Assembly: GCA_026393975.1 (NCBI GenBank)
Contig: JAPKZD010000004.1
Coordinates: forward strand, 1-34,114
DNA from: Candidatus Aminicenantota bacterium
GTDB taxonomy: Bacteria; Acidobacteriota; Aminicenantia; Aminicenantales; Saccharicenantaceae
Direction: 5' to 3'
Length of the DNA: 34,114 nt
This document shows positions 15,914-22,445 of the stretch, piece after piece. Position 1 is the first letter of the stretch. Each line of letters opens with the position of its first letter. The notes beneath the pieces were generated by a model, which saw only the letters and a program-made list of their open reading frames with translations, made no database searches and had not been told where the DNA came from. Made by a program: the position numbers and the translations under genes.

Positions 15914-16447
15914 ATGTGCGAAGAACATGACGGCTTCACCCTGTGGTTCACCGGACTGCCGTGCTCCGGGAAATCCGCCGTCGGCGACCGCGTCGCCGCG
16001 ATCCTCAAAGAACGGGGACACCGAGTCGAGAGGCTCGACGGCGACGTCGTCCGCCAGGAGCTGACCCGGGACCTGGGCTTTTCGAAGAAGGACAGGGACG
16101 AGAACATCCGCCGGGTCACCTTCGTGGCCAAGCTCCTCTCCCGGAACGGCGTCGCCGTCCTGACGTCGTTCATCTCGCCCTACCGGGAGATGCGTGACCG
16201 GGCCCGGAAGGAGACGACGAATTTCGTCGAGATCTACGCCAAGTGCCCCCTCGACATCTGCATCCAGCGCGATGTCAAGGGCATGTACCAGAAGGCCATC
16301 CGCGGCGAGATCAAGGAGTTCACCGGCATCTCCGATCCCTATGAGGAGCCGCAGAGCGCCGAGATCGTCCTCGAGACCGACAAGGAGACCGTCGAGGAGA
16401 GCGTCCAAAAGGTCCTCCGCCGCCTGACGGAGCTCGGCCTGCTATAA
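15914..16447 (+). CDS. cysC: Adenylylsulfate kinase (APS kinase)
   Basis: The enzyme phosphorylates APS to PAPS, the universal sulfuryl donor. The protein has 177 residues, the standard length. The P-loop is GLPCSGKS (14-21). LDGD (41-44), RDENIRR (61-67), FISPYR (86-91) and GISDPYE (138-144) are the APS-binding and lid motifs. The start has AAAGGA upstream, 19 bases after the phosphodiesterase-like gene. A standalone kinase together with standalone ATP sulfurylase in one operon gives a complete PAPS route. No PAPS reductase follows in the window. Nucleotide-sugar genes follow immediately instead, which points to sulfation chemistry. Confidence 0.95.
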   Translation: MCEEHDGFTLWFTGLPCSGKSAVGDRVAAILKERGHRVERLDGDVVRQELTRDLGFSKKDRDENIRRVTFVAKLLSRNGVAVLTSFISPYREMRDRARKETTNFVEIYAKCPLDICIQRDVKGMYQKAIRGEIKEFTGISDPYEEPQSAEIVLETDKETVEESVQKVLRRLTELGLL

Positions 16448-16456
16448 TAAAGAACG

Positions 16457-17396: not shown

Positions 17397-18721
17397 ATGA
17401 ACAAAGAAGTTACGAAACTACTCAAGAAGATCGAGGCGAAGGAGGCCCGCATCGGGGTCATCGGCCTGGGCTACGTCGGCCTGCCCTTGGTCAAGACCTT
17501 CCTTCAAAAGGGTTTCCGCGTCACCGGGTTCGACATCGATCAGAAAAAGATCGACATGCTCAACCGCGGCAGGAGCTACATCCGCCACATCTCGGCGGCC
17601 GAGCTCAAGGACTTTTTAGGCCGGAAAAAGTTCAAAGCCTCTTCGAATTTCCAGGGCCTGCGGGACATCGACGCGATCCTCATCTGTGTGCCGACGCCGC
17701 TCGACGGCCATGGGAGTCCCGACCTCTCCTACGTTCTCAACTCGACGATCACCGTCGCCGAACACATCCGCAAGGGCCAGCTCGTCATCCTCGAGAGCAC
17801 GACCTACCCGGGGACGACCGACGACGAGATGCTGCCTATCCTCGAGGCCGGCGGCCTCCGGGGCGGCCGCGACTCCTTCCTGGCCTTCTCTCCCGAACGG
17901 GAGGACCCCGGGAACAAGAATTTCTCGACGGCCACGACCCCCAAGGTCGTCGGCGGCCTGACGCCCGACTGTCTGCGAGTGGCCAAGGCCCTCTACGACC
18001 AGATCATCGTCCGGACCGTCCCCGTGTCGTCGACCAAGGCGGCCGAGTCGACCAAGCTGCTCGAGAACATCTTCCGCTCCGTCAACATCGCCCTGGTCAA
18101 CGAGCTGAAGATGATCTTCGACCGCATGGGCATCGACGTCTGGGAGGTCATCCGGGCCGCTTCCTCCAAGCCTTTCGGCTTCATGCCGTTCTATCCCGGG
18201 CCCGGCCTCGGCGGGCACTGCATCCCGCTCGACCCCTTCTACCTGACTTGGAAGGCCAAGGAGGTCGATTACCAAACGAAGTTCATCGAGCTCGCCGGCG
18301 AGATCAACACGTTCATGCCCTACTACGTCAGGGAGAAAACCGTAGCCGCGCCGCCCTGAACGATCGGGGAAAATCGATCAAGGGCGCCAAGGTGCTCGTT
18401 CTCGGGCTGGCCTACAAGAAGGATATCGACGACTCGCGCGAATCTCCGTCCCTGAAGATCATCAGCCTCTTCCAGAAGAAGGGGGCGAAAGTCTCCTACA
18501 ACGACCCCTACATCCCGAAGCTGACCGGGCACCGCGAATACCCGGGGATGGAGCTCACGTCCGTCCCGTTGACCCCGGCCCTGCTCCGGAAATCCGATGC
18601 CGTCGTCATCTCCACGGACCATACGTCCTACGATTACGACTGGATCGTCAAGCACGCGCCGCTCGTCGTCGACACCCGGAACGCCATCAAGCGGCGCAGG
18701 AAAAACGTCGTCAAGGCTTAG
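17397..18721 (+). pseudogene. UDP-N-acetylhexosamine 6-dehydrogenase (WbpA-like), split by a frameshift
   Basis: The start is ATG at 17397 with AAAAGGAGATAA upstream. The first 320 residues contain the NAD motif GLGYVG (23-28), ESTTYPGTT, ESTKLLENIF (Lys219) and the catalytic cysteine loop PGLGGHCIPLDPFYL (Cys275). GRSYIRHI is typical of UDP-GlcNAc/ManNAc dehydrogenases. The frame then ends in TGA at 18357. The C-terminal UDP-binding domain continues in the -1 frame from about 18350 (ALNDRGKSIKGAKV, then LAYKKDIDDSRESP) to a stop at 18719-18721. One missing base, or two extra, near 18340-18356 explains this. With the frame repaired the protein would be about 441 residues, the normal length. 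The family oxidises UDP-HexNAc to the uronic acid with 2 NAD+. Real inactivation and sequencing error are both possible. Confidence 0.8.
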
Positions 18722-21155: not shown

Positions 21156-21379
21156 CGGCGGGAAGCGGCGCCCATTTCTTTGAAAAGCTGGAGCGTTTCT
21201 CGGGCTTCTTTTTTGTCCAGGAGGGAGATGGCGAAGCCCGCGTGGATGATGACCCAATCGCCCAGCCGGGCCTTCGGAACGAGGGAGAAATTGGCCTTGA
21301 CCTCGCTGCCCATGTAATTGGCGGTCCCTTGGCCCGAATCCTCGAGCCGGGTGATCTTTGCGGGCACGGCTAGGCACAT
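21152..21379 (-). CDS. hypC: Hydrogenase maturation chaperone HypC
   Basis: The protein has 75 residues, starting with the invariant MCLAVPAKI, whose Cys2 binds the Fe(CN)2CO unit and the hydrogenase large subunit precursor. The rest fits the family: VKANFSLVPKARLGDWVIIHAGFAISLLD. A TTG start seven codons upstream is possible but would bury the essential N-terminal cysteine, so 21379 is chosen. GGAG lies about eleven bases upstream. The stop overlaps the hypD start by ATGA, placing hypC, hypD and hypE in one coupled unit. Cytoplasmic. Confidence 0.93.
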   Translation of the reverse strand: MCLAVPAKITRLEDSGQGTANYMGSEVKANFSLVPKARLGDWVIIHAGFAISLLDKKEARETLQLFKEMGAASRR

Positions 21380-21459
21380 TTTCGTTTTGCTCCAGGCCAA
21401 TACTCTACCAGAATTCCCGCAGCTGTTCTACTTCCTAGCTCGCGGCATCGGGGCGGGAC

Positions 21460-21600
21460 GTTGCCCGGGCAGTGATGGGGGCCATGTAGAGCCCCCGTAG
21501 CGGAGGGGGACCCGCCGCTTACGGCGGGGGAACCGCCGGGACTGGTTCTCAGGGGGGCCGGGGGATATGCATGGCCCCCATCACTGACAAAACGGGCAAC
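21460..21600. repeat. Large multi-hairpin inverted-repeat element (structured DNA or RNA)
   Basis: A perfect 17-base inverted repeat (arms 21470-21486 and 21570-21586, CAGTGATGGGGGCCATG and its complement) is flanked by a second 8-base pair, GTTGCCCG (21460-21467) with CGGGCAAC (21593-21600). The 83-base interior folds into at least two more hairpins: CCCGCCG-CTTA-CGGCGGG (21511-21528) and GAACC/GGTTC (21530-21548). A CCCCC/GGGGG pairing around 21492-21509 is also possible. It lies in the divergent gap between hypC and uppS. It could be a non-coding RNA, a MITE or REP-type cluster, or a regulatory structure. No gene is encoded in it. Confidence 0.65.
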
Positions 21601-21621
21601 ATCTCGCTGCCCCGAGCCGCG

Positions 21622-21650
21622 CTTGTTTCCGCCCCGGCCCGTGATATAAT
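21622..21650 (+). promoter_or_regulatory. uppS operon promoter (near-leaderless)
   Basis: CTTGTT (21622-21627), a 17-bp spacer and a perfect TATAAT (21645-21650) lie nine bases before the ATG at 21660. The -35 is weak and the -10 is strong. The start codon falls at or just after the expected transcription start. Confidence 0.5.
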
Positions 21651-21659
21651 GGGGGGCCA

Positions 21660-22445
21660 ATGCTGAAGAAGCTCGAGGAGTATTTCCCCCCCGGGACAGA
21701 GGAGCACGACCTCCTACTCAAGATCGATCTCCGCCGTCTGCCCGGACATGTCGCCGTGATCATGGACGGCAACGGGCGCTGGGCCCAGCAGAGGGGCCTC
21801 TCCCGGGCCGAGGGCCACAACGCCGGCTCGGCTTCCGTTCGCGAGGTCGTCGAGGCTTCGGCCCGGCTCGGCATCGAGTTCCTGACCCTCTACGCCTTTT
21901 CTCGGGAGAACTGGAAAAGGCCCCGCCTGGAAGTCGGCCAGCTCTGGCGGCTCCTCCGGGAATACCTGGGTAAAGAGGACAAGCTCCTCATCGAGAACGA
22001 CATCCGGATGCGGGTCATCGGCCGGAAAGCGGGCATTCCCCGGCCGGTCCTCAGGGAACTCGAGCGCGTCGAGGAAATGACCCGGACGAACTGCCGGATG
22101 ACGCTTGTCATCGCCCTCAACTACGGCGGCCGGAGCGAGATCGTCGACGCCGTCCGGCGGATCCTGGAAGAGGGACAGCTGGGCCCGGGCGACTTGGACG
22201 AGAAAGAGTTCGCCGCCCATCTCTACACGGAGGGCATCCCCGACCCGGACCTCCTCATCCGGACGAGCGGCGAGCTCAGGGTGTCGAACTTCCTCCTCTG
22301 GCAGATCGCCTACACCGAGATCTACGTCACACCCGTGCTTTGGCCGGATTTCCGGAAGAGGCACCTTCTCGAGGCCGTCCTCGAATACCAAAAACGGGAC
22401 AGGAGATTCGGTGACATCCACGCGGGAACCCCTCCGAAGAAATGA
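21660..22445 (+). CDS. uppS: Isoprenyl transferase (undecaprenyl diphosphate synthase type)
   Basis: This cis-prenyltransferase makes the C55 lipid carrier for peptidoglycan and surface glycans. The protein has 261 residues. The catalytic block is VAVIMDGNGRWA, with Asp36 binding pyrophosphate. YAFSRENWKRP (78-88), LNYGGRSEI (153-161) and LLIRTSGELRVSNFLLWQ (198-215) follow. A 28-residue N-terminal extension precedes the core. The start at 21660 lies just after a TATAAT box, without a clear ribosome binding site. It is the first gene of an envelope/isoprenoid operon, and dxr and ispG in the same unit make its precursors. Confidence 0.95.
   Translation: MLKKLEEYFPPGTEEHDLLLKIDLRRLPGHVAVIMDGNGRWAQQRGLSRAEGHNAGSASVREVVEASARLGIEFLTLYAFSRENWKRPRLEVGQLWRLLREYLGKEDKLLIENDIRMRVIGRKAGIPRPVLRELERVEEMTRTNCRMTLVIALNYGGRSEIVDAVRRILEEGQLGPGDLDEKEFAAHLYTEGIPDPDLLIRTSGELRVSNFLLWQIAYTEIYVTPVLWPDFRKRHLLEAVLEYQKRDRRFGDIHAGTPPKK

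Follow-up and report, generated by a model that had tools for sequence, protein, structure and literature searches.

What is the large nested inverted repeat that separates hypC from uppS? The question concerns a 141-nt element in a divergent gap (hypC starts at 21379 on the minus strand, uppS at 21660 on the plus strand) of a Candidatus Aminicenantes contig, of which a stretch of 34,114 nucleotides, referred to as the window, was analyzed. A preliminary description had suggested a structured RNA, a non-autonomous mobile element or a regulator of uppS or hypC. We consider that the feature is probably a single member of a non-autonomous family of mobile repeats that is confined to one order of Candidatus Aminicenantes.

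The 17-bp perfect stem, the outer 8-bp stem and the inner hairpins that had been described in the gap were all recovered, at z scores of about −7 to −8. The perfect stem joins positions 21470–21486 (left arm CAGTGATGGGGGCCATG) to 21570–21586 and lengthens to 28 nt at 89%, and the outer stem joins 21460–21467 (GTTGCCCG) to 21593–21600. The edges of the element, at approximately 21457–21603, lie a little beyond the 21460–21600 originally given. Folding energies of the 141 nt were −97.3 kcal/mol for the plus strand and −86.8 kcal/mol for the minus strand, compared with means of −63.8 and −56.3 kcal/mol for dinucleotide shuffles (z = −7.6 and −8.2, respectively), and none of 200 shuffles matched the stability of the element. 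The inner fold is described better by the family consensus than by the minimum-energy fold of the single sequence. The features of the element are as follows.

21457–21603, plus strand (the putative folding strand): whole element, subclass 1a, as judged from copies aligning over 21456/21464–21597, the ends of the outer stem and the G-T:A-C bias.
21457–21467, plus strand: left arm of outer stem P0 (GACGTTGCCCG), with 10 of 11 pairs formed with 21593–21603; this arm persists in sister genome G004, where the rest is missing.
21470–21486, plus strand: left arm of P1, the perfect 17-bp stem; arms pair better within a copy than with the partners of other copies (10000 permutations).
21492–21496, plus strand: left strand of P2 (CCCCC), pairing with 21560–21564; in genus g4, a different complementary sequence stands in its place.
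21497–21504, plus strand: unpaired conserved junction (GTAGCGGA), near-invariant in 61 aligned copies.
21511–21528, plus strand: inner hairpin P3 (CCCGCCG / CGGCGGG), with changes on both sides in up to 35 of 61 copies.
21529–21549, plus strand: hairpin P4 (GGAACC-GCCGGGACT-GGTTCT) with a conserved loop; 5 of 61 copies show a double change from AU to GC.
21560–21564, plus strand: right strand of P2 (GGGGG), from the family consensus fold.
21570–21586, plus strand: right arm of P1, forming the stem with the left arm (same permutation test).
21593–21603, plus strand: right arm of outer stem P0 (CGGGCAACATC), following an AAAA bulge and pairing with the left arm.

P3 varies freely and co-varies, and in other copies it is the place of replacement or insertion. 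A local CCCCC/GGGGG hairpin at 21492–21509 is disfavored because genus g4 has lost the CCCCC, retained the G run and retained P2 with other sequence. Pairing of the junction with the P4 loop as a pseudoknot is suggestive in single subfamilies and did not rise above permutation (P = 0.22). No intrinsic terminator (GC hairpin followed by a T run) was found on the plus strand at the element, and identity as a terminator was rejected, the one weak minus-strand match (21594–21612) comparing with 0.4 expected by chance. In class 2 copies elsewhere, the outer arms are flanked by A/T. Rfam 15 covariance models gave no gathering-level match in the window and nothing plausible at E ≤ 10 at the element. 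HEARO/IscB omega RNA and other Rfam families are structured RNAs that can occur as many stand-alone copies; the element differs from these in having no Rfam match.

Further copies, whose absence the preliminary description had named as a reason to discard the element, were found by sequence search (E ≤ 2e-9) at approximately 26 places in the same ~2.95-Mb genome, and at 22 by covariance model. Family members range from about 120 to 230 bp. Own-genome copies are mostly 76–95% identical over the whole element or the core, and due to this limited likeness they do not form the simple exact repeat that had been raised as an alternative. Some copies have had the inner hairpin deleted (L026, L030) or swapped for a second repeat of ~100 bases (L012:14232–14445, L020). 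ERICs also vary by internal insertions. When gene calls were made with a codon-usage caller, none of 27 copies was centered in a called gene, in sequence that is 86% coding (P ~6e-23). Neighboring genes are divergent, convergent or codirectional in both senses, and since every arrangement occurs, there is no fixed relation to any neighbor.

Arm pairing was evaluated with 85 unique copies from 13 genomes. Pairing energies were −38.2 kcal/mol for arms of the same copy, −26.6 kcal/mol across copies of one genome and −19.5 kcal/mol across different genomes, and none of 10000 within-genome permutations was as good as self-pairing. RNAalifold, applied to a MAFFT alignment of 61 copies that was not fitted to structure, returned P1, P2, P3 and P4, with double changes in 13 of 23 pairs. 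The covariation score was 0.389, compared with 0.160 for shuffled and at most 0.133 for slid pairings; a lack of covariation was the second outcome that was to have counted against the element. For 100 more divergent copies, which were aligned to the model and are hence biased towards it, the score was 0.550 versus 0.144, and all four P2 pairs co-vary. Conserved letters are found in the unpaired junction (GUAGCGGA) with the G run that follows it and in the P4 stem-loop (loop GNCGGGACU). The arms and P3 are variable between copies, and the arms remain complementary. G-T pairs outnumber A-C mismatches in the stem by 127 to 39 (strand-blind scoring), although this ratio and the shuffle statistics overstate independence, given that the copies and stem cells are related. 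Due to the G-T excess, one strand would be the folding strand, and the evidence points to the window plus strand, as RNA or single-stranded DNA.

The guess of a structured RNA has therefore held, in that the helices carry the covariation expected of a selected structure. It is unlikely, in our judgment, that the copies make up a family of functional non-coding RNAs (protein-binding or catalytic, for example), each useful to the host and with duplication secondary. A conserved unpaired junction and P4 loop amid helices that co-vary freely is typical of a functional RNA, and the wobble bias to one strand agrees with it, but the copies have neither a fixed orientation to genes nor a common neighbor, and the arms reach the ends of the element and leave no obvious internal promoter. 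The same sites are empty in sisters, and most genomes of the class are without the family. The compensatory changes in one orthologous pair of copies, L009 of this genome and L126 of G004, do favor a functional RNA: the flanks are nearly identical, and the stems differ at two pairs, both fully compensated, and at one wobble, without any uncompensated change, and the inner hairpin is exchanged. Such compensation in place could stem from either selection acting after insertion or gene conversion among copies.

A covariance model (R1) detected the family in 39 of the 142 class genomes. Every one of the 13 genomes sampled from the genus was positive (the present one included), and occurrence is patchy in at least six families. 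In a phylum-wide sample of 396 genomes, the 12 positives all fell within the same order. A DNA pattern search matched only Candidatus Aminicenantes and “Acidobacteria” metagenome assemblies, there was no family match in plasmid, phage and viral collections, and nothing was found in the literature on such repeats in Aminicenantes. In genus g4 the element forms short tandem arrays with repeat lengths of ~106, 145 and 173 nt. Arrays of three to four units lie at L199:8704–9237, L200:7382–7697, L201:7973–8366 and L202:7773–8228, those of L199, L201 and L202 having one gene neighborhood in common.

Mobility was assessed by comparing sites between sister genomes. Copy L124 of G004 occupies 212 nt where the present genome has 24 nt, within ~4.5 kb of context at 94–96% identity. 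Class 2 copy L027a of the present genome lies after the end of a PDZ-type gene and is missing in G004, where the gene reads on to ...RPE-stop; because this ancestral C-terminus persists as a fossil beyond L027a, the present genome has the inserted state. No palindrome exists at the corresponding empty site in G004 and the arms arrived with the insert, which does not support an origin of the arms as pre-existing host palindromes. An L012 copy upstream of an SMC-like gene is absent in G011. One empty site lies in the window itself.

16441–16456 (16 nt), no strand assigned: empty site between cysC-like and galE-like genes, where G008 has a family member.

At the hypC–uppS gap, nine genus members have 72–104 nt without the element, G010 has a different subclass in the same place, and in G004 the left outer arm alone remains, as if the rest had been deleted between TGCCC repeats. 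Since empty sites in sister species show both gain and loss, the element moves. The suggestion of a non-autonomous mobile element is thus upheld by the ~26 own-genome places together with sites that are filled in one sister species and empty in another. The properties observed for the family are its copy number, its intergenic placement, the covariation, the bias of wobbles to one strand, and site-specific gain and loss. Counting against a mobile repeat family are the L009/L126 compensatory changes made in place and the fact that no target-site duplication is clear at the several empty sites compared, the flanks of which have diverged. No transposase or autonomous partner of the family was found among the loci examined, and this also counts against it.

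Several other structured repeats were encountered. The second dispersed repeat (GGCAGGGAGCG...AGAAGTGCGGCGGAG...GCCGCACTTCTGGGAAATATC) has dozens of matches in sister genomes and is present at L016:7600–7802, L012:14232–14445, L020:4003–4227, L032:4020–4130 and L164–L169. Fusions of this repeat with either the left or the right half of the studied element recur, with the junction in the same position. Another structured sequence, the third to recur (GCGTTAAGAATCACCGCAGCGAACGAAGACGAT...), is common to L022, L028, L160 and L161. An inner stem-loop (CCGCTTCGAGAGAAGCGG; L013, L012:9454–9602, L153) is found with its loop in both orientations, and a sister genome has it in an unrelated palindrome, which suggests exchange of hairpin modules. 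At L034:4000–4033, a core-deleted copy is an arm-only hairpin with an A-rich bulge.

A classical MITE would be a deletion derivative of a DDE-type insertion sequence, with terminal inverted repeats recognized by the transposase of that sequence, and we regard this as quite improbable here. The family is short, non-coding, dispersed and mobile, as MITEs are; copies are small and intergenic with inverted arms, and mosaic insertions of the second repeat occur. The termini, however, are less conserved than any other part, which is the opposite of what a MITE shows: conserved terminal inverted repeats are absent, and the arms, complementary within each copy, differ between subclasses and genomes. 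The element is also G+C-rich, there is no clear target duplication, and no parent element was seen among the loci examined.

It is very improbable that the element is a palindrome of REP/REPIN type mobilized by a RAYT (Y1) transposase. REPs are 20–40 bp long and carry GTAG at one of their ends, and families with this motif are associated with RAYT genes (PMC3733652). The element resembles REP/REPINs in its structured single strand, its GTAG motif in the core, its mosaic combinations and its extragenic position, and the order has RAYT genes, but its GTAG is internal (at the P2–P3 junction) rather than terminal next to a short hairpin. Association with RAYT genes was rejected: the element occurs in 0 of 32 RAYT loci (98 kb), and the two RAYTs of the present genome with flanking repeats have other palindromes. 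Moreover, at least 15 copies are present in G004, a genome 96% complete in which no Y1 gene was found. The palindromes flanking the two RAYT-like genes (L037:854–920 and 1935–2001; L038:1209–1451 and 2697–2732) are probably REP families in their own right, and that of L038 type (GGGGACATGTACC) is also present in intergenic gaps of sisters.

Regulation of uppS or hypC was considered with reference to the following feature.

21623–21650, plus strand: uppS promoter region (TTGTTT ... TATAAT), outside the element; uppS is closely preceded by TATAAT both in the window and in 18 relatives.

The TATAAT box (21645–21650) is downstream of the element and is present in the 18 relatives whether or not they carry the element. 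The uppS site was missed by a scan for consensus promoters, and the promoter therefore rests on conservation. Because the element is upstream of this box, it lies outside the predicted uppS transcript and, as it is also absent in most sister species, it is not a conserved regulator of either gene, contrary to the earlier proposal. A cis-regulator of uppS or hypC is hardly credible, since the element does occupy the gap common to both genes but the conserved TATAAT box is downstream of it, the nine genus members have gaps without it and G004 has the left outer arm only. Elsewhere in the window (17397–18721), a nucleotide-sugar dehydrogenase is read in two frames (17397–18359 and 18248/18392–18721), possibly due to a frameshift or an assembly error.

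Among known repeats, ERIC (IRU) is ~127 bp, intergenic and dispersed, with a long stem formed by pairing of the 5′ and 3′ ends and an unproven mobilizer (PMC2229807); it has TA ends and target duplications (PMC2229807, Table 1). The studied family was set beside ERIC by description rather than by sequence comparison, and matches in the phylum sample lie only inside the order. Like ERIC, it is intergenic, about 100–200 bp, with a single long stem from both ends; unlike in ERIC, conservation resides in an inner junction and loop, the arm sequences are free to vary, and ends of the ERIC type were not observed. BOX, RUP and SPRITE of pneumococcus are small interspersed repeats with RNA-like folds that were judged parasitic, BOX being modular (A-B-C) (PMC3049150). 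RUP is tied to IS630-Spn1 (PMC2229807), whereas no parent of this kind was found for the studied element. ERIC, NEMIS, RUP and BOX are folded, mostly non-coding and mostly intergenic, with no proven mobilizer (PMC2229807; PMC3049150). Terminal repeats, TA ends and target duplications are found in most of these families, whereas the studied family gave no clear sign of them. Due to these differences and those from REPs, our best reading is that the family is new, a variant of the ERIC/MITE kind whose conserved core is unusually RNA-like, and no member of a named family.

For the mobile repeat family preferred here, folding of the plus strand would give the long stem P0/P1, the closing helix P2 and hairpins P3 and P4, with the conserved junction and loop left unpaired. 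An enzyme of the host or of a transposon would copy the element in trans and may recognize the folded single strand (single-stranded DNA or RNA), as the conservation pattern and wobble bias suggest. Its targets would be the conserved core and the shape of the arm duplex, and we propose that arms drift yet stay complementary because their shape, not their sequence, is read. Effects on neighboring genes would be incidental, such as hairpins in untranslated regions or at gene ends. Only tentatively do we go further and suggest a new class of mobile structured RNA or single-stranded DNA with a conserved three-helix junction, the folded strand of which is copied by a trans-acting enzyme that recognizes core and shape rather than termini.

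The family would provide a clean case of a bacterial mobile repeat in which the interior is conserved and not the ends, and in which the arms drift with compensation. A defined folded core, several empty sites and close species that differ in carrying the element make it possible to test how ERIC-like repeats move. The finding also adds an undescribed repeat family that is able to break up assemblies of an uncultured order.
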